Assembly: GCA_015521325.1 (NCBI GenBank)
Contig: WAOK01000013.1
Coordinates: 1 to 43,917 of the forward strand
Direction of reading: 5' to 3'
Origin: Desulfurococcales archaeon
Lineage (GTDB): Archaea; Thermoproteota; Thermoprotei_A; Sulfolobales; NBVN01
Length of the DNA stretch: 43,917 bases
The notes under the pieces are model-generated. The model had not been told where the DNA came from. It saw only the letters and a program-made list of their open reading frames with translations, and made no database searches. Positions within the stretch are counted from its first letter, which is position 1, and every line of letters begins with the position of its first letter. Below are positions 1,032-25,711 of the stretch, piece after piece. The position numbers and the translations under genes are program-made.

Positions 1032-3680
1032 TCAGACCTCGATCCTCAGCGCCTTCCTAACCTCATCAACGACCAGCACGGGTAGTGCCGAGGCGAGGGC
1101 TAACACGAGCACCCACGCCGGTAGCGCGACGGTCGAGAACGCTGCCTGGAGTGGTGGCAGGTAGACAGCCATCAGCTGGAGGGCTACGGACGCCGCCAGC
1201 CCGGCGCCGAGCCAGTGGTTCCATGGGAGCTTTAGGAAGCTTATGCGTTCCGACCTCGCCGCCAGTGCTCGGCCGAACTCGCTGAACGCCATCGCCGTGA
1301 ACACCGCCGTCCTCGCAAGGGTCAGGCCCAGTGGGAGGAGGTACCTGAAAATCGCTATGTTCACCACACCGATGAGGGTGCCGAGCAGGGTCATGTACCC
1401 CAGCTTCCTGTTAGTGAGGAGCTTCTCCTCCCTACCCCTCGGCGGCCTCTCCATTATGTCCGGCTCCGGGGGCTCGACAGATAGGCCTAGTGCTGGGAGG
1501 GAGTCTGTGGTCACGTTTATCCAGAGCAGCTGCACCGGCTTGAGGGCCGGCGGCATGAGCATCGCCTGCGAGAGGAATATCGTGGCTACCTCGCCGATGT
1601 TCGCCGGTATGAGGTAGTTTATCGGCTTCTTCAGGTTCTCGTATATTATCCTCCCCTGCCTCACGGCCTCCACGATCGTGACGAAGTTGTCGTCCTGTAT
1701 GATGAGCTGGGCAGCCTCCTTAGCGACGTCGGTCCCCCTAATCCCCATAGCTATCCCTATGTCCGCCTCCTTGAGGGCGGGAGCATCATTAACACCGTCC
1801 CCCGTCATCGCGACGACGTAGCCCCTCCTCTTCAGCGCCCTCACTATCCTCCTCTTGTGCTCTGGTGTGACCCTAGCATATACGACAACCCTATCGACCA
1901 CTTCGTAGAGCTCGTCATCACTCATCCTGTCCAGCTCCTTCCCCTCCAGGACAGAGCCCTCTCCCACCTCGAGCCCTATCTCCCTCGCTATCGCGGCAGC
2001 CGTGAGCCTGTGGTCACCGGTTATCATTATCACCTTTATCCCCGCCTTCCTCACCTCCTCAACGGCATCCCTAACCCCCTCTCTCGGGGGGTCGATGATG
2101 CCCATCACAGCCATAAATACCAGGCTGTCCTCTATCGCCTCGTCGTTCTCCGGCAGGCTGTCCATGACCTTGTACGCCAGCGCGTAAGTCCTGTAACCGC
2201 TCGATGCCAGGGACTCGATGTACTTCATTATCTCCTTCCTCACTGACTCATTCAGTGGCGCCTCCGACTCCCTCACCAGGACCCTGTTGCTGAGGGCAAG
2301 CACATACTCGGGGGCGCCGGACGTTATTACTAGATATTTCTCGTTGCCCAGGTGGTGGACGGTGGTCTTCCTCTTCCTGAACCTGTCGAACGGTATTGTC
2401 TTGACGATGGACTCATCCGGCCTCACGGCATCGAGCCCCAGGATCTTCGCCGCTAGGACTAAGGCAGCGCCCTCCGTCGGTGAGCCGAGCACCCTCCACT
2501 GCCCTCCCTCACTCACGAGCTGGACGTCCTGGGCGATGTGCCTGATTATATACTCCGCAAGCCTCTCCACCGGCGCGCCCTCACCCCTAATCAGGCGCAC
2601 CTCACCCCGCGGCTCGTACCCGACCCCGGTTACTTCGTACTCAGAGCCCCCCACCCATACACGCCTAACCGTCATCTCGCCCTTCGTTATCGTGCCGGTC
2701 TTATCGGAGGCTATGACATTACACGCTCCCAGCGTCTCTATCGCTGAGAGGGAGCGCACGAGAACGTTCCTCTGGGCCATCCTCCTCGCACCGATTGCCA
2801 AGACCGTGGTCGCGACTGCTGGCAGGCCCTCCGGCACCGCGGCCACGGCTAAGGATACGGCGAGGAGGAAGGAATCGATGATCGGTATACCTTCCAGCGT
2901 TGAGGTGGCGAACACGATGCCGCTGATCCCAAGAATAACCACACCTATCTTCTTACCTAGGGTGTCGAGCTCCCTCTCGAGGAGGGTCCTCTCCTCCTTG
3001 ATCTCCGTTAGGGAAGCGGCGATCTTTCCTAGCTCGGTCGAGGCACCAGTGGCGACCACTACCGCGAGGCCCTTCCCCTTGACCACGTGGGTGCCCATGA
3101 ACACCATGTTCTTCCTTTCGGCAACAGGCGTATCGGGGTCGAGGACGGCGTTGGGGTCCTTGCTGACCGGTACAGATTCCCCAGTTAGGGGTGACTCATC
3201 GACCTCCAGGTTCCACGCCTCAATCACCCTCGCGTCAGCGGCTACCCTGTCACCCTCCCTCAGAACGAGTATGTCACCGGGCACGACCTCCCTCGCCTCG
3301 ACCTCGACCACCCTCCCGCCCCTGATGACCCTCGCCTTAGGCGAGGCCAGGGCCTTGATCGCCTCCAGCGCCTTCTCAGCCTTGAACTCCTGGGCGAAGC
3401 CCGCGACACCCATTATGACGACGATTATCGCTATGACAGCCGCGTCAATCACCTCCCCGAGGAGCGCCGATACCGCGGTAGCGGCGAGGAGGATCACTAT
3501 GAGGAAGTTCGTGAACTGCCTCAGGAGCATCATGAGGGGTGACTTCTTCTTAGTCGATAACTCGTTGGGGCCATACCTCTCGAGCCTCTCCCTAACCTCC
3601 TCATCTGTTAGGCCCTCCCTCCTCGTCCCGAGCCTCTTAAGCACCTCATCGGCGGTGAGGGCGTGCCAGGCCTCGCTCAT
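1032..3680 (-). CDS. P-type cation-transporting ATPase, P2A (Ca2+/Mn2+) type
   Basis: Complete 882-residue P-type ATPase. In order: N-terminal cation ATPase domain (1-70), TM pair, actuator domain with TGES (166-169), M4 with PEGLP (283-287), phosphorylation site DKTGT (326-330), nucleotide-binding domain, TGDH (about 554-557), hinge TGDGVND (626-632), then the C-terminal membrane helices. The residues that form a Ca2+ site in SERCA are present: Glu in PEGLP (M4), Asn694 and Glu697 in M5 (NIGEV) and Asn722, Thr725, Asp726 in M6 (NVTTD). This argues for Ca2+ or Mn2+ export rather than H+, Na+/K+ or heavy metals. The start ATG is preceded by a GGGGGGT stretch. It is a single gene with its own 5' region, divergent from proS. 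Ion choice is inferred, not shown. Confidence 0.92.
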   Translation of the reverse strand: MSEAWHALTADEVLKRLGTRREGLTDEEVRERLERYGPNELSTKKKSPLMMLLRQFTNFLIVILLAATAVSALLGEVIDAAVIAIIVVIMGVAGFAQEFKAEKALEAIKALASPKARVIRGGRVVEVEAREVVPGDILVLREGDRVAADARVIEAWNLEVDESPLTGESVPVSKDPNAVLDPDTPVAERKNMVFMGTHVVKGKGLAVVVATGASTELGKIAASLTEIKEERTLLERELDTLGKKIGVVILGISGIVFATSTLEGIPIIDSFLLAVSLAVAAVPEGLPAVATTVLAIGARRMAQRNVLVRSLSAIETLGACNVIASDKTGTITKGEMTVRRVWVGGSEYEVTGVGYEPRGEVRLIRGEGAPVERLAEYIIRHIAQDVQLVSEGGQWRVLGSPTEGAALVLAAKILGLDAVRPDESIVKTIPFDRFRKRKTTVHHLGNEKYLVITSGAPEYVLALSNRVLVRESEAPLNESVRKEIMKYIESLASSGYRTYALAYKVMDSLPENDEAIEDSLVFMAVMGIIDPPREGVRDAVEEVRKAGIKVIMITGDHRLTAAAIAREIGLEVGEGSVLEGKELDRMSDDELYEVVDRVVVYARVTPEHKRRIVRALKRRGYVVAMTGDGVNDAPALKEADIGIAMGIRGTDVAKEAAQLIIQDDNFVTIVEAVRQGRIIYENLKKPINYLIPANIGEVATIFLSQAMLMPPALKPVQLLWINVTTDSLPALGLSVEPPEPDIMERPPRGREEKLLTNRKLGYMTLLGTLIGVVNIAIFRYLLPLGLTLARTAVFTAMAFSEFGRALAARSERISFLKLPWNHWLGAGLAASVALQLMAVYLPPLQAAFSTVALPAWVLVLALASALPVLVVDEVRKALRIEV

Positions 3681-3734
3681 CAGACCCCCCTAATGACTCG
3701 GGGCCGGGGTCATAAGGGCGAGGGTCGGGGGCGA

Positions 3735-3745
3735 CTTATTTAAAG
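3735..3745 (+). promoter_or_regulatory. TATA-like box of proS
   Basis: CTTATTTAAAG is centred 28 bases ahead of the GTG start of proS, which fits a leaderless archaeal transcript. There is no clear ribosome-binding site before this start. Confidence 0.6.
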
Positions 3746-3767
3746 AGTTAATGGAATAGGGCCTTAG

Positions 3768-5144
3768 GTGCCCGGGTTGTCAAGCGAGAGAGAGGTCGGC
3801 GGTAGGGAGTGGTTCAACGACCTGATCGAGGAAGTAGGTATCGTGTTCATTCACTACCCTGTGTCCGGGTCCTACCCCTACCTACCCTTCGGCGCTAAGC
3901 TCGCCAGGGCCCTTCAGAGGGAGCTCGAGAGGAGGCTGGAGGAGTCTGGGCACGAGCCCATAATATTCCCCTCACTCATACCCCTCTCCCTCTTCCGCAA
4001 GGAGGTCGACTTCTTCGAGGGCTTCTCACCCGAGGCACTCGTTGCTGAGAAGACCCTCAGCGGAAGGGAGCTCGGCGAGCCCTTAATACTGAGGCCCACG
4101 AGCGAGGTCCCGATATACTTCGTTTTCTCTCAACTCATCCACTCCTGGAGGGACCTCCCGAAGAAGGTCTACCAGACAGTCACCGTCTATAGGGTCGAGA
4201 CAAGCGCTACCGCACCCCTCTTCAGGCTGAGGGAGGTCACTCTCTTCAACGAGGAGCACGTCTTCACTAAGGGGCCGGAGGAGGCGGAGGCACTCTTCGA
4301 GGAGGCGATAAGGCTCTACTCAGAGTACCTCGAGTGGGCCAGGATACCTCACCTCATAGTCGAGACACCTCCCTGGGACCTCTTCCCTGGGGCCTCAAGG
4401 AACGTCGACCTCATAACCTTCATGCCGGACGGCAAGATACTGGAGCTGGCCTCAGTCATTAACTTCAGGGATAAGTTCGCCAAGGCCTTCGAGATAAGGT
4501 ACATGGGGGAGGACGGGGTCAACAGGTTCGTGCACCAGATAACCTACGGCATAGGCATAGACAGGGTTCTCGGCGCGCACCTATGGCTCCACGCAGACGA
4601 GAGGGGCCTCACTCTCCACCCCGACATAGCTCCTCTCGATGCTGTCGTGATACCGATATTCAAGGAAGAGACCAAGGAGGAGGTGATGAGGTACGTTGAG
4701 GAGAGTGTCGTGCCCGCCCTGAGGTCGGCAGGGCTATCATTCGTCGTTGACACAAGCGAGAAGACACCCGGTAATAAGTACTACCACTGGGAGAAGAGAG
4801 GCGTCCCGTACAGGGTAGAGGTCGGCGCCAGGGAGGCGAGGGAGGGCTCGGTCACGCTCTTCAGCAGGGCGGAGAGGAAGAGGAGGAAGGTAAAGCTTGA
4901 GGAGCTAGGGGACGCCCTTAGCGTGGTTAGGGGAGCGTACCTGGAGGCAATGTGGGAGAGGGCTAAGGAGAAGGTTCTGGAGTCCATGAAGAAGAACGCC
5001 AAGCTCCTAGATATAGAGTTTGAGGAGGGCGCTTGCCTCGAGGCCGAGGAGGACACCGGCCTCAACACCATTGGGAAGGTAATAGGTGGGCCGCTGGCCA
5101 CGGAGGACATGATAGGGAGGGTACTGTTCGGTAAAAAATACTGA
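3768..5144 (+). CDS. proS: Proline--tRNA ligase, archaeal type
   Basis: Class II aminoacyl-tRNA synthetase of 458 residues that charges tRNA-Pro. The order of conserved parts matches archaeal/eukaryal ProRS: EWFNDLIEEVGIVFIHYPV at the start, motif 1 region around FPSLIPLSLFRKE...EGFSPE, LRPTSEVPIYFVF, motif 2 with VYRVET and FRLREV, the PPWDLFPGA loop, HQITYGIGIDRVL (motif 3 Arg), the anticodon-binding domain from about residue 280 (VVIPIFKEE) with EKTPGNKYYHWEKRGVP, and a C-terminal Tyr. The C-terminal domain, which in several archaeal enzymes binds zinc through Cys residues, here keeps only one Cys (GACLEAEE), so the zinc site seems lost, while the terminal Tyr is kept. The GTG start fits the TATA box position. 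Confidence 0.95.
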   Translation: MPGLSSEREVGGREWFNDLIEEVGIVFIHYPVSGSYPYLPFGAKLARALQRELERRLEESGHEPIIFPSLIPLSLFRKEVDFFEGFSPEALVAEKTLSGRELGEPLILRPTSEVPIYFVFSQLIHSWRDLPKKVYQTVTVYRVETSATAPLFRLREVTLFNEEHVFTKGPEEAEALFEEAIRLYSEYLEWARIPHLIVETPPWDLFPGASRNVDLITFMPDGKILELASVINFRDKFAKAFEIRYMGEDGVNRFVHQITYGIGIDRVLGAHLWLHADERGLTLHPDIAPLDAVVIPIFKEETKEEVMRYVEESVVPALRSAGLSFVVDTSEKTPGNKYYHWEKRGVPYRVEVGAREAREGSVTLFSRAERKRRKVKLEELGDALSVVRGAYLEAMWERAKEKVLESMKKNAKLLDIEFEEGACLEAEEDTGLNTIGKVIGGPLATEDMIGRVLFGKKY

Positions 5145-9651: not shown

Positions 9652-10995
9652 CTAGAAGAATGACCTGGACTCCCTCCCCTGGAACAACGTCATCGCTATC
9701 GCCCTGACCTTCTCAGCGAGGTGCTCGTACTCCCTCTTCACGTATATCCTCATGAAAGCCACCTCCGACGGCATCATCCCAACGATCGTGTTCCTCACCG
9801 GCACGTTCTCTATGGTGCCGTCGGCGTACTCGATCGGTATCGTCGACTCCTCGAACATCGGGTTCGTGGGTAACCTGGGCATGTCGATGAACACAGCGTC
9901 CTCACCTACCTCCTCCTCGGCGACTGAGCGGAGGTTGTCGATGATGGACTCCTGCAGGAACTTGAGGCTGAACCTTATGAGGGTCTTGACCTGCTGCTCG
10001 AGGGACTGCATCACCTCGTACGCAAGCTTATAGGGCACTACCCTGTTAAGGAGGTACCTCGCCTCCTCCAGCTCCCTGACATCCGGGTGGGATAGGACGT
10101 AGTCGTCGTCGAGCTCGACATATTTGGTGACGTCATCCACCGCCTCCCGGAACCCGAGTATGTCCTCCGCCTTCACCAGGAGGTCGCCCATCGCCTTATC
10201 GAATGCTCTGGAAGTCTTATGGAAGTACACGTTCTTGAACATGAAGAACCTCGCTATGAGGAGGGAGTCGAGCACGTCCTTCCCCTTATAGCTCAGTACG
10301 GGTCTATCCCTCACGAACCTGGAGTGGTAGGCGAGTCTCTCCCAGTCGAGGGCGACACCGTAGGAGGCGCCGGTAAAGAAGGAGTCCCTTAGCAGGTAAT
10401 CCACTATGTCGGCTGAATAGGGCCCCTTGATTATGTAGTAAAGGGACCTCTCGCTCACACCCTCAGCGATGACGGAGCGGAGTGGCCAGGTCTCCGTGTT
10501 CGGTGCCTCTATCATCTTCCCCATATCTTTTGCGGAGATGCCTAGCTCCTTCTCAATAACTTCATCAAAGCATTTGGCTACGTCAGGATGCTCTGAGACT
10601 ATCCTACCCCCGATTACCTCATGGTTCGTGCTGTACTTAGCTAGGACATGGTCTTCGAATGTGTGGCTGAAGGGGCCGTGCCCTATGTCGTGGAGAAGGC
10701 CGAGCAGGCGGGCTATGTAGTAGAGCCTCTCCTTCTCCGCCCTATCAACGCCGTCGAGCCTGCCGTAGAGGTGCTCCGCGAACACACCCGCAACGTACGC
10801 GACGCCGAGGGAGTGGGAGAACCTCGTGTGCACAGCGCCCGGGTAGACGTAGTGGGATGCGGGCAACTGCTTCATCCGCCTCAGCCGCTGGAACGGTGGG
10901 GAGTCGATGAGGCATCTCTCGTGGGAGTAGACCCTTATGTAGCCGTGCACAGGGTCCTTGATGATTATGTAGTTACTGCCTATCAGCCCGCGCAC
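9652..10995 (-). CDS. HD-domain phosphohydrolase (SAMHD1/dNTPase-like superfamily)
   Basis: About 447 residues from the chosen start. It opens with IIKDPVHGYIRV and FQRLRRMKQL, typical of HD phosphohydrolases related to dGTPases and SAMHD1. The metal site is visible: H in HTRFSHS, HD in LLGLLHDIGHGPFSHTFE, and a later Asp in GPYSADIVDYLLRD. Likely role: cytoplasmic hydrolysis of nucleotides, possibly dNTP control; substrate unproven. The open frame reaches a TTG at 11052, only 3 bases from the divergent CDF start. I prefer the GTG at 10995, because the AT-rich stretch 11014-11034 in between looks like promoter DNA and the GTG gives a normal family N-terminus. Either start is possible. Confidence 0.85.
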   Translation of the reverse strand: MRGLIGSNYIIIKDPVHGYIRVYSHERCLIDSPPFQRLRRMKQLPASHYVYPGAVHTRFSHSLGVAYVAGVFAEHLYGRLDGVDRAEKERLYYIARLLGLLHDIGHGPFSHTFEDHVLAKYSTNHEVIGGRIVSEHPDVAKCFDEVIEKELGISAKDMGKMIEAPNTETWPLRSVIAEGVSERSLYYIIKGPYSADIVDYLLRDSFFTGASYGVALDWERLAYHSRFVRDRPVLSYKGKDVLDSLLIARFFMFKNVYFHKTSRAFDKAMGDLLVKAEDILGFREAVDDVTKYVELDDDYVLSHPDVRELEEARYLLNRVVPYKLAYEVMQSLEQQVKTLIRFSLKFLQESIIDNLRSVAEEEVGEDAVFIDMPRLPTNPMFEESTIPIEYADGTIENVPVRNTIVGMMPSEVAFMRIYVKREYEHLAEKVRAIAMTLFQGRESRSFF

Positions 10996-11055
10996 CCTCT
11001 GAGATACCTTATCAGAGAAAAAACTTTTTGTGGGCTTAATCAAGGAAACCAAGTA

Positions 11056-11949
11056 ATGAGGGCAATCTATCTCTCCACAGCAATGAACGTCGCCGCCCTA
11101 GCACTGAAGGCGGTGGCAGTAATAACTTCAGGTTCGGCAGCTGTTGACGCTGAGTTCCTCCACGCCCTCGGCGACCTCGCGGGGTCGTCCCTCATAGCTC
11201 TGGGTGCATACATAGCCGCCACCAGGCCCCCGAGCATGAGGTTCCCTTTCGGTCTGGGTAGGGCAGTCTATGCCCTATCACTCATAGCCTCGACCCTCAT
11301 AGCCGGTTTCCTCTCCGCACTAGCGGCCGTAGCCGGGCTCAAGAAGCTCGCCACCTCATCACCTGTAATTGCTGGCAACGCCACCACCGCACTCCTAGCC
11401 GCGACGGCCCTTGACTCGGCGGTTCTGTACCTCGGCATCAAGGAATACAGGAGAGGAGTATTCGACCCCTCGACAAGGTGGGTACTCATCGAGAACTCCA
11501 TGGACCTCTTAGGGAACGCTGCCGCCCTAACCTCGCTCGCCCTCCTCAGCCCCACGATAGATGCCTACGCGTCCTTCACCATAGCCGCCCTGTTAGCGAC
11601 ATCCTCCGCCTCACTCACCTACAGGTCGTTCCTAGTCTTGGTGGGCGTGTCCGCACCGAGGAACGTTGTGGGGAGGCTCATAAAGGTCGCGGCGTCTCAC
11701 CCGGATGTGGTCGATGTTGACGATGTCCGGACAATGGTTCTTGAGCCAGGTAAGTACCTAGCGATCATGAAGGTAGAGTTCCGGGAGGGGATGACGGTGG
11801 ATGAGGTGGAGAAGGTGAAGAGGGAGATAGCGGAGGCCGTGAAGAAGGTAGAGCCGGGGGTAGAGCACCTAATAATAGATGTGGTACCCCCCGAGGGCGA
11901 GGCCACCACCTTCTTAGAGCTCCTCAGCATGCTGAGGGGCCTGAGCTAG
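11056..11949 (+). CDS. Cation diffusion facilitator (CDF) family transporter, SLC30A9-like variant
   Basis: 297 residues with about six membrane helices (1-205) and a C-terminal cytoplasmic CDF domain (about 210-280; DVDDVRTMVLEPGKYLAIMKVEF). Helix 2 has the metal ligands as HALGD. In helix 5, where most CDF proteins have HxxxD, this one has ENSMD, so His is replaced by Glu, as in the SLC30A9-like branch. The protein probably exports a divalent cation in exchange for protons, but Zn2+, Mn2+, Fe2+ or Co2+ cannot be told apart from sequence. The ATG at 11056 is the start; a longer frame runs through the HD gene and is a shadow. It overlaps the CBS gene tail-to-tail by 4 bases. Confidence 0.85.
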   Translation: MRAIYLSTAMNVAALALKAVAVITSGSAAVDAEFLHALGDLAGSSLIALGAYIAATRPPSMRFPFGLGRAVYALSLIASTLIAGFLSALAAVAGLKKLATSSPVIAGNATTALLAATALDSAVLYLGIKEYRRGVFDPSTRWVLIENSMDLLGNAAALTSLALLSPTIDAYASFTIAALLATSSASLTYRSFLVLVGVSAPRNVVGRLIKVAASHPDVVDVDDVRTMVLEPGKYLAIMKVEFREGMTVDEVEKVKREIAEAVKKVEPGVEHLIIDVVPPEGEATTFLELLSMLRGLS

Positions 11950-21610: not shown

Positions 21611-22095
21611 TTGACTTACGCAACGATTAGATCGCCAGAGTCGATAGTTAGGAGAATGCAAAAAGAGGCGGAGAAGCTAGGAATGAGTTTAGAGGAGTAT
21701 GTGCTTGAACTCGTTGCCCAGGGCCTAGATCCAAAGAATAGGGCGAGAGAATACATTGAAGCAGCCAAGGATTTGCTCTCCCAGGCCAGGGAAGAACTCG
21801 AAAGGGATAACGCTAGACAGGCGGCTGAGAAGCTATGGGGGCGACGGCCCTAGCTGTTAAGGCTTATGCCTCTTGGAAATATGACAAAGTACTGAGAAGT
21901 CATGCAGACCTCTGGGAATACAAGAGGAAAATGATGAAAGAATTCGGCGAATGGGTCAATAGTTCATGGAACGGAGGACAAAGCATGCATGTGTGCTTCT
22001 ATGAGGGTTGGTGCACTGAGGAGGATGTTGAATCGACGCTTAAGGACATTAAGAGGCTTGTTGATGAAGTTGCTAAAAGGATTAGAGAGGGTTAA
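21611..22095 (+). pseudogene. PaREP1 family gene, split by a -1 frameshift at a G run
   Basis: Two overlapping frames together encode one PaREP1-type protein of about 161 residues. The first (21611-21853, TTG start) gives an RHH-like N-terminus SPESIVRRMQKEAEKLGMSL and REYIEAAKDLLSQAREELE, QAAEKLWG, then ends RRP-stop. The second frame, open from 21835 to 22095, continues the family sequence exactly: ATALAVKAYASWKYDK, LWEYKRKMMKEFGEWV, SMHVCFYEGWCTEEDVE. The junction is a run of five G (21837-21841); six G would restore a single frame. It may be a decayed gene, an assembly error, or programmed slippage of the Gly codon GGG by one base, which would yield the exact family sequence. The base composition is visibly poorer in G+C than its neighbours, suggesting transfer. 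Confidence 0.8.
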
Positions 22096-23720: not shown

Positions 23721-24195
23721 GTCGTGCTACTCCTTCGATGTGGACGGGGTAGTTGTGGATGTGAGGCTTAGGCTTGAGGAGGCGAGGAGGGCTGAGGCCC
23801 TAGGGGCTAGGTTTGAGGACGTCTTCTTCGATGAGGAATTGATAAGGCGTCTCGACATGCCGAGGCATGTCGGTGTAGAACTCGTTAGGAGTAGGGCGAG
23901 GGATGGGAGGGTCATTGTCGTGAGTGCGAGGCCTGCTAGGCTGAGGAGGGTCACGATAGAGCAGTTCGTGAGGTTCACGGGGGTGGAGCCACTAGCCGTT
24001 CTCCTTAGGCATCCCGGGGACTTCAGGCCAGCGGGGGTTGTTAAGGCCGAGCACCTCGAGGCCGCTACTAAAAAACTGTGCTGGGTCATGGAGCACCATG
24101 ACGACGATGAGGAAGTACTTAGGTACCTATCCTCGAGGCTCCCCTGGCTGAGGCTATACCTCCACTACGGCGACACCTACACGAGGTTCAGGTAA
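23710..24195 (+). CDS. HAD-like hydrolase
   Basis: 161 residues. It has a short-form HAD core: YSFDVDGVVVDV (nucleophile Asp and the +2 Asp), VIVVSARPARL (motif II Ser), a Lys in GVVKAEHL and EHHDDDEEV as the acidic motif. The middle part is a small alpha-helical cap (about 20-55). It probably dephosphorylates a small molecule or a nucleic-acid end; substrate unknown. TTG start, overlapping the E1-like gene by 11 bases, so translation is likely coupled, and the two may share a pathway. It converges on the HicB-like gene with an 8-base overlap. Confidence 0.75.
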   Translation: MASESCYSFDVDGVVVDVRLRLEEARRAEALGARFEDVFFDEELIRRLDMPRHVGVELVRSRARDGRVIVVSARPARLRRVTIEQFVRFTGVEPLAVLLRHPGDFRPAGVVKAEHLEAATKKLCWVMEHHDDDEEVLRYLSSRLPWLRLYLHYGDTYTRFR

Positions 24196-24442
24196 GCTCC
24201 TCTCCGGCTCTCTCCTCAACATCAACCTCAACAAGCCTGGCGTCCACCGCCTCCCTCACCTCGGACTCGCACCAGCTAGCGAGCATCTTGGGTATCTCCT
24301 CAATAACCCTCCTCACAGCCTCCTCAACGCTCTCCCCCTGAGCCCTAGCACCCGACTGCGGCTCTTCAGCGACATACCATACACTGCCATCCTCATCGAC
24401 TTCCTTATACACAATTATACCGAGCCTAACCCTCCTCCCCAT
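24188..24442 (-). CDS. HicB-like protein, orphan
   Basis: 84 residues. The first 55 residues have the HicB antitoxin-like fold pattern: two strands (LGIIVYKEVDEDGSVWYVAEEP), the turn SGARAQGESVEEAVRRVIEEIP with the Gly and following helix. HicB antitoxins usually pair with a HicA toxin of about 60 residues carrying a catalytic His; I looked on both sides and saw no such frame, so this is an orphan or a non-toxin relative. The ATG has GGTGG 6 bases upstream. It is divergent from the ATPase gene and separated from it by about 230 bases that include the palindromes. Confidence 0.65.
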   Translation of the reverse strand: MGRRVRLGIIVYKEVDEDGSVWYVAEEPQSGARAQGESVEEAVRRVIEEIPKMLASWCESEVREAVDARLVEVDVEERAGEELT

Positions 24443-24630
24443 ACTCAGCCACCGCTATTACTAGCTCTCGATGCTTAAGTTAGATTCCTTGAGCTCAATA
24501 AACTCGGCTATAAGAGGAGTCGCTAGTAGCGTGAACACATAATGACATGAGCGAGAGGGGATTGGTGCTACATGACTCGTACTGCTATGTAAGCGGGGCT
24601 AAGAGTTGTTGATTTGTCTTTAGGCGAGGT
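24443..24630. other. Intergenic region between the HicB-like gene and the ATPase promoter
   Basis: This stretch has no open frame that I believe. It holds a short inverted repeat CGCTA-G-TAGCG (24521-24531) and a possible minus-strand box CTTAAG near 24475. No RNA gene was recognised. Confidence 0.35.
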
Positions 24631-24637
24631 GTTTATT
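24631..24637 (+). promoter_or_regulatory. TATA-like box of the archaeal ATPase gene
   Basis: GTTTATT lies immediately before the first palindrome. Transcription would then begin about 24660-24665, inside the second palindrome, a few bases ahead of the ATG at 24674. Confidence 0.45.
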
Positions 24638-24638
24638 G

Positions 24639-24671
24639 GTTCCGGTGCGGAACTGAGTTCCGGTGCGGAAC
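24639..24671. promoter_or_regulatory. Two tandem perfect palindromes, candidate operator
   Basis: Two identical copies of GTTCCG-GTG-CGGAAC lie at 24639-24653 and 24657-24671, that is 18 bases apart start to start, separated by TGA. Each is a 6-base inverted repeat around a 3-base centre. They fill the DNA from the TATA-like box to within 2 bases of the ATG of the ATPase gene. Such a position fits a repressor operator; in RNA each copy could also fold as a small hairpin next to the start codon. Confidence 0.7.
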
Positions 24672-24673
24672 CA

Positions 24674-25711
24674 ATGCTATTCGACCCGAGGCCCAAAACG
24701 AGTAGGGCCGAGTTATTTGATAGAGAGGATGAACTGAGAACCCTGGACAGATTTGCTGAGAGAGGTGATCCTCTCGTCCTCGTCCTTGGGATTAGGAGGA
24801 TCGGCAAGACATCCCTCGTAAGGTCTTTCCTCAGCGACTGGATAGGGGTTTACGTTGATGCTAGGGGAGTTAGGACGAGGGCGGACCTATTTAGGGTTGT
24901 GGGTGAGGGTCTCAGCTTCTCACAGCGGGTTAGGAGATTGCTCCGGGGTGTTAGGGGCGTTAGAGTTAGTGCCTCGGGTGTCGAGATTAAATGGAGAGGG
25001 AGGGATTCTATTAGTTTGGCAGGCCTCCTCCACGAGCTTGGGAGATCGGGTAAGAGGGTATTGGTTGTCTTCGATGAGGTTCAGTCCCTCCGCCCACCGA
25101 TCTCGGTAGAGGTTAGGGAAGCAATAGCTTACGCCTACGACAACGTTTCGTCTGTCTCCGTGATCCTGTCAGGTTCTGAGGTAGGCCTCCTAAGGGACTT
25201 CGTCGGCATCGACGACCCGGACTCACCCCTGTATGGGAGGTACGCCCTCGAGGTTGAGGTGAAGAGGTTCAGCCATGACCTGTCGGTTGAGTTCCTTAGG
25301 GAGGGATTTAGGGAGGAGGGTGTTGAGGTTGGGAGGGGCATCATAGAAGAGGCGGTCGCCGAATTCGACGGAATAGTTGGTTGGCTCGTTTACTTCGGCC
25401 GCCTCTACGTGGACGGTATGAGAGACCTTGGCAGGATCGTTGAGGCGGCCGTTGAGACAGCCTTGAGGGAGTTGCGGCACCTCAGGCGTAGGGAGAGGCT
25501 CGTACTTAGGGCTATAGCGGAGGGTGCGAGGACTTGGTCCAGTGTTAGGGATTACGTAGAGGGGGTAGAGGGCGTCACGATACCCAAGGCATCCTTGACC
25601 AGGACCATTAAGAAGCTCGAAAGACTCTCGATAATACGGAATTATGAGTTCCTCGACCCGGTCTACGAGAGGGCGGCCAAGAGACTGGGGAGGGGCGGGG
25701 GAGCGTCGTAA
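24674..25711 (+). CDS. Archaeal ATPase (PF01637-type P-loop AAA family)
   Basis: 345 residues from the ATG at 24674. MLFDPRPKTSRAELFDRE is the usual start of this family, so I reject the longer TTG frame from 24614, which reads through the palindromes. Walker A is GIRRIGKTS (39-47); Walker B is VLVVFDEVQSL (about 145-155); SGSEVGLL is the sensor-like Ser/Gly region. The C-terminal third (about 250-335) has a winged-helix look: RRRERLVLRAIAEGARTWSSVRDYV and PKASLTRTIKKLERLSIIRNYEFLDP. These ATPases are common and variable in archaea and often sit in mobile or genomic-island settings; their role is unclear. The start is covered by the tandem palindromes. Confidence 0.9.
   Translation: MLFDPRPKTSRAELFDREDELRTLDRFAERGDPLVLVLGIRRIGKTSLVRSFLSDWIGVYVDARGVRTRADLFRVVGEGLSFSQRVRRLLRGVRGVRVSASGVEIKWRGRDSISLAGLLHELGRSGKRVLVVFDEVQSLRPPISVEVREAIAYAYDNVSSVSVILSGSEVGLLRDFVGIDDPDSPLYGRYALEVEVKRFSHDLSVEFLREGFREEGVEVGRGIIEEAVAEFDGIVGWLVYFGRLYVDGMRDLGRIVEAAVETALRELRHLRRRERLVLRAIAEGARTWSSVRDYVEGVEGVTIPKASLTRTIKKLERLSIIRNYEFLDPVYERAAKRLGRGGGAS

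Follow-up and report, generated by a model that had tools for sequence, protein, structure and literature searches.

Differently spelled palindrome pairs as predicted autoregulatory operators of an archaeal AAA+ ATPase family

The window ATPase gene and its twin palindromes

The window analysed here, a 43,917-nucleotide stretch of a Desulfurococcales archaeon genome, contains a gene for an AAA+ ATPase with two copies of a palindrome just upstream of its start codon (Table 1). The protein belongs to the PF01637 (ATPase_2) family, scoring 62.1 bits against the curated Pfam cut-off of 33.2 when scanned from an upstream TTG (24614). A profile search of the PDB matched it to PABY2304 of Pyrococcus abyssi (2QEN; E = 1e-83) and SSO1545 of Sulfolobus solfataricus (2FNA; E = 7e-81), and Foldseek gave TM-scores of 0.84 and 0.82 to the same two proteins. 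The homology is full-length, and the window protein (AlphaFold model, pLDDT 96.2) shares the architecture of both, an ATPase domain followed by a C-terminal winged helix. P-loop residues G39, R41, G44, K45, T46 and S47 occupy invariant columns of the alignment. The winged-helix domain weakly matched the Pfam MCM_C wHTH model, slightly below its cut-off. To our knowledge, PABY2304 and SSO1545 are described by structures only, with no operator or autoregulation reported, and no function has been assigned to this ATPase family, which is abundant in hyperthermophilic archaea and whose structures were solved about two decades ago.

STAND-type regulators such as MalT and IniR likewise join an ATPase to a DNA-binding domain. 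The Foldseek hits of the window ATPase include a maltose regulatory system structure (8bob), the stretch DGI(P/V)GWL (residues 232-238) resembles by eye the NB-ARC GLPL motif of STAND NTPases, and the ATPase domain of IniR was modelled on SSO1545 (PMC5760070).

Table 1. Features of the window ATPase gene and its upstream region
Feature	Position	Strand	Basis
TATA-like box, TTTATT	24632..24637	+	sequence
Predicted operator site 1, GTTCCG-GTG-CGGAAC	24639..24653	+	sequence; homologous position in 115 + 60 loci
Predicted operator site 2, GTTCCG-GTG-CGGAAC	24657..24671	+	sequence; homologous loci
Larger near-palindrome enclosing both sites	24635..24675	.	arms 24635-24654 and 24656-24675, 85% complementary
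PF01637 ATPase, 345 aa	24674..25711	+	Pfam, profile search of PDB, AlphaFold model, Foldseek
Walker A / P-loop region, GIRRIGKTS, residues 39-47	24788..24814	+	invariant columns
C-terminal winged-helix domain, helices 272-282, 288-299 and 305-317, then wing	25487..25681	+	AlphaFold model
Recognition helix and N-cap, residues 302-317, TIPKASLTRTIKKLER	25577..25624	+	column scan, leave-one-out, held-out test

The palindrome GTTCCG-GTG-CGGAAC (GTTCCGGTGCGGAAC) is present as two exact 15-nt copies, 18 nt apart from start to start, the second ending 2 nt 5' of the ATG (24674-24676). The original prediction placed the pair at 24631-24674, correct to within a few bases, and held that two exact palindromes between a TATA-like box and the ATG were unlikely by chance. 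Our counts agree. We defined a pair score as the agreement of the four half-sites in the best pair (maximum 36). The window pair scored 36, and dinucleotide-shuffled upstream regions of this kind never reached 28 (0/575). The perfect palindrome GTTCCGNNNCGGAAC occurs only as the two window copies in the whole 1.72-Mb genome. Because the palindrome is unique to these two places and no shuffle reached 28, we conclude that the pair is beyond chance. Near-matches to GTTCCGNNNCGGAAC were no commoner genome-wide than near-matches to a reversed control.

Palindrome pairs across the ATPase family

We found PF01637 similarity at 14 places in the host genome. All members of the window ATPase's subfamily (5/5) had a tandem palindrome pair upstream, with arms that differ from gene to gene. 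The pairs are AGTTTA-CCGGG-TAAACT and AGTTTA-GGGGG-TAAACT at L017, GTATC-AGGGGT-GATAC and GTATC-GGGGGT-GATAC at L019, two copies around CTAA-GGGGGG-TTAG at L023, and GTTCTGGGTCAGAAC and GTTCTGGGTGAGAAC at L026, where the gene's frame is broken. The three paralogues with AGTTTA, GTATC and TACTAA arms are intact. Other host PF01637 genes (L016, L018, L022, L024, L025 and L027) had no tandem pair upstream, and another, L020, had a single unrelated palindrome. The broken gene at L026 (G000 contig C35, approximately 10340-11450) nevertheless has a pair identical to that of L197, an intact copy from the same genus. At L019 (G000 contig C23, near 6164) the family start codon aligns with ACG, with a GTG within site 2 as the closest usual start.

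Perfect sites were essentially private to each gene. In the host genome, the perfect sites with GTTCCG arms and those with AGTTTA arms all lay at the gene itself (2/2 in each case). For the shorter GTATC arms this held for 2 of 5 perfect sites, and one-mismatch sites in the host genome were not in excess over the control. Because the perfect sites are private, its own gene is the only evident target of the ATPase, whereas MalT and IniR are larger proteins that carry sensor domains and act on genes other than their own. A wider regulon in the host genome was rejected, with site counts showing no excess over the control. Among 87 within-genome paralogue pairs, the operators showed no clear excess of difference, and no clear avoidance of each other's sites beyond chance.

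Searching with a profile built from four paralogues, we obtained 80 loci from Thermoproteota, Thermococcaceae, other archaea and two Thermotogota-labelled records; the same profile hit approximately 75 good places across 60 related genomes. The main set consisted of 115 distinct full-length genes with sufficient upstream DNA, and 60 further genes from genomes of the phylum were held out. The mean pair score of the 115 homologues was 30.0 out of 36, compared with 20.1 (sd 2.0) in shuffles. A score of at least 26 was found for 87% of the homologues and 0.35% of the shuffles, and a score of at least 28 for 75% and 0%, respectively. Among the 60 held-out homologues, 72% scored at least 26. As a control, we scored 175 other ORFs in the same loci; 3.4% (six) had a score of 26 or more upstream, and at least one of these six (L099) is a family gene itself.

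The paired sites lay 16 to 20 nt apart from centre to centre, mostly 19. The arms differ between genes and yet remain complementary and equal across both copies. Counts of complementarity are somewhat inflated because sites were picked for symmetry, a bias of which the shuffle and control comparisons are free. The check set in the original prediction, whether the palindrome is missing ahead of orthologues, has to be reworded: the exact window sequence was absent from most, but a pair of other sequence was present. Differently spelled pairs ahead of orthologues are stronger evidence for an operator than one conserved sequence.

There were exceptions to the paired arrangement. L157 and L221 have a single site, L196 has nothing clear, and the Pyrobaculum-type genes L091, L107, L217, L225 and L227 have one compact 23-nt palindrome, such as ACCTCCCAAGTTACTTGGGAGGT in L091 and L107, in place of the pair. 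This is a second predicted operator architecture in the ATPase family.

The palindromes are not a coding repeat within a longer N-terminus starting at the TTG at 24614: an in-frame stop falls within 45 nt in 132 of the 175 homologous upstream regions, and spacings of 17, 19 or 20 nt between centres, none a multiple of 3, are frequent. The open frame back to that TTG is due to chance only.

Recognition helix and operator arms

We compared differences between operators with differences between the proteins encoded next to them. Operator distance correlated best with the distance between recognition helices (Spearman 0.27), compared with 0.15 for the ATPase domain and 0.05-0.11 for other regions. 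In a partial Mantel analysis, the recognition helix retained r = 0.26 after the ATPase domain was removed (permutation p = 0.005). Once the helix was accounted for, the partial correlation of the H1-H2, wing and linker regions was near zero, and the ATPase domain kept a small one (r = 0.12, p = 0.01). A scan of 306 alignment columns, corrected for whole-protein distance, ranked residues 306, 308, 304 and 305 as the top four (r = -0.23, -0.23, -0.21 and -0.20, respectively); the most extreme of 200 permutations gave -0.199, and a value of -0.20 was likewise seen at column 142, which lies in the ATPase domain.

The helix also predicted operators in the held-out genes. Prediction was limited to training relatives with less than 45% identity in the ATPase domain, and the site distance was 0.41 when the nearest relative was chosen by the first 8 residues of the helix, 0.51 by the ATPase domain, 0.50 by H1-H2 and 0.54 at random. 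The helix outpredicted the ATPase domain (Wilcoxon p = 0.002). The Mantel and nearest-neighbour controls remove shared descent only in part, and the correlation between arms and helix is clear but moderate, in part owing to automatic register assignment.

Particular combinations of helix and arm recurred: TNAQ with GTATC, PK(S/A) with GTTCC, NNT with GTTAG and, in distant lineages, DDK with CTGG. L235, which has a PK(S/A) helix, has an operator identical to that of the window. From its helix, EISDSEIYNYL, SSO1545 is predicted to have the operator ACTTC-TAGGGGTA-GAAGT, matching L191 and L231.

Promoter geometry and a proposed self-controlling switch

We mapped the pair relative to the promoter in the 141 homologous loci where a pair was clear. 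Counted from the centre of site 1, an A/T-rich box occupies -14 to -9. The centre of the TATA box is a median of 40 nt from the start codon and approximately 30 nt upstream of the centre of site 2. Because this matches the usual archaeal distance from TATA box to transcription start, we infer that the transcript begins within site 2 and that site 1 is untranscribed; in the window, site 2 is expected to overlap the transcription start of the ATPase gene. On the + strand the core of site 2 contains GGG in 94/141 loci and CCC in none (0/141). The core of site 1 contains CCC in 14/141 loci, that is, it can be flipped. This pattern is consistent with a Shine-Dalgarno sequence sitting within site 2 and with a site-1 core that is free of direction.

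A different type of promoter is seen at L106, a Thermotogota locus on a 134-kb contig. There TACAAT follows both sites, the 17-bp spacer of a -35/-10 promoter is taken up by site 2, and GGGGGTGG lies apart from the pair, upstream of the start codon. L074 appears by eye to be like L106, with TATAAT after the pair; it is on a 4-kb contig and is absent from the promoter-scan list. By eye, the ORFs neighbouring L106 encode an M3-type peptidase-like and an OsmC-like protein. In L074, which is Thermotoga-labelled, ATPase-like genes (15-1361 and 2700-3986) flank the family member, by eye a small ATPase cluster.

Very probably, the ATPase itself docks on the twin palindromes. We further propose, with considerable confidence, that the pair is an autoregulatory operator through which the ATPase, binding with its winged helix, represses its own transcription. 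The operator reading in the original prediction is supported by the recurrence of the pair, its position, and the coupling of arms to helix: a symmetric site overlaps the core promoter from which the regulator itself is expressed, and the operator covaries with that regulator's recognition helix, as expected of an autoregulatory operator. Repression is plausible because the sites are downstream of the TATA box. Autoregulated archaeal repressors of the Lrp, TrmB and similar families have palindromic sites that overlap their own core promoter downstream of the TATA box. The proteins of those families are small, and the sites of any one regulator are largely conserved, whereas here the protein is an AAA+ ATPase and the spelling differs at nearly every gene.

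The sites might also, or mainly, serve DNA remodelling, replication or mobility, in the manner of Orc1/Cdc6 or of a selfish element, with repression a by-product; we consider this unlikely. After PABY2304 and SSO1545, the nearest folds found by Foldseek are the Cdc6/Orc1 initiators, which also combine AAA+ and winged-helix domains and bind DNA, at a TM-score of only ~0.5. The family is also patchily distributed (43/121 genomes) at 0 to 12 copies per genome, and several copies are broken. However, Cdc6/Orc1 proteins bind origin repeats, whereas the predicted sites of the window ATPase are promoter palindromes, and in Thermotogota the position of the sites is kept relative to the promoter rather than the gene. 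The ATPase family was not found in the phage, plasmid and viral collections searched, and such an origin was rejected for those collections.

The genomes G129 and G156 have as many as 12 ATPase copies per genome, several of them broken in G156, indicating rapid gain and loss. In a synteny check for an empty site, the neighbouring gene of 161 aa was found in relatives, and none of the other window genes turned up beside it there. Elsewhere in the window (21611-22095), positions 2-31 and 32-115 of PaREP1 (PF05942) are matched by two ORFs that overlap in different frames, a split and probably frameshifted PaREP1 gene.

It is very unlikely, in our estimate, that the palindromes act as RNA hairpins controlling translation by masking or exposing the Shine-Dalgarno sequence and start codon, an option raised in the original prediction. 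The predicted RNA fold of the near-palindrome is strong (-28.9 kcal/mol, z = -3.95) and the G-rich core of site 2 resembles a Shine-Dalgarno sequence. However, the TATA spacing would leave site 1 outside the transcript, the site-1 core can be flipped, the dependence on the recognition helix would go unexplained, and an Rfam search gave no match at E <= 1. Because the L106 pair covers the -35/-10 region and so precedes any transcript, it would act as DNA. A DNA operator would explain the arrangement at L106, including the separate GGGGGTGG before the start, and RNA hairpins would not.

Least probable of all is an operator for another DNA-binding protein, such as a global regulator or the HicB-like protein, whose ORF (24188-24442) is divergent from and close to the ATPase gene: that ORF matched no family in Pfam, NCBIfam or PADLOC, HicB of the HicAB toxin-antitoxin systems included, and had no relative among the 80 homologous loci, and gene-by-gene differences in arms that track the ATPase's own helix are not expected of one outside protein. 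The orphan HicB-like gene lacks conservation and probably plays no part; of the two binders originally suggested, the evidence strongly favours the winged helix of the ATPase.

If the ATPase is its own repressor, its C-terminal winged helix would bind both sites, probably as a dimer on each palindrome. With site 1 between the TATA box and the transcription start and site 2 over the start, bound ATPase would block TBP, TFB and RNA polymerase and so repress its own transcription. DNA binding may depend on the nucleotide state of the ATPase domain. Each gene's operator spelling would be matched to its own recognition helix, and paralogues in one cell would then form largely separate self-limiting switches. 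Whether the family as a whole consists of one-gene, ATP-gated autorepressors, with private operator pairs, a readable code and many insulated copies per cell, we judge to be an even call. The copies may possibly be sensors or selfish elements.

We did not find an earlier report of operators for ATPases of the PABY2304/SSO1545 type in the open literature, and novelty is provisional on that scope. Autorepression is a known kind of control; what is provisionally new is an AAA+ ATPase family with a differently spelled operator pair at nearly every member. The operator pair suggests DNA targets for family members and makes the function of these ATPases directly testable. With recognition helix and cognate DNA side by side at 175 loci, the family is a natural experiment on winged-helix specificity, and its members could serve as thermostable repressors that may work independently of one another. 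An ATPase family that has long been a puzzle now appears to be a collection of gene switches that control themselves.
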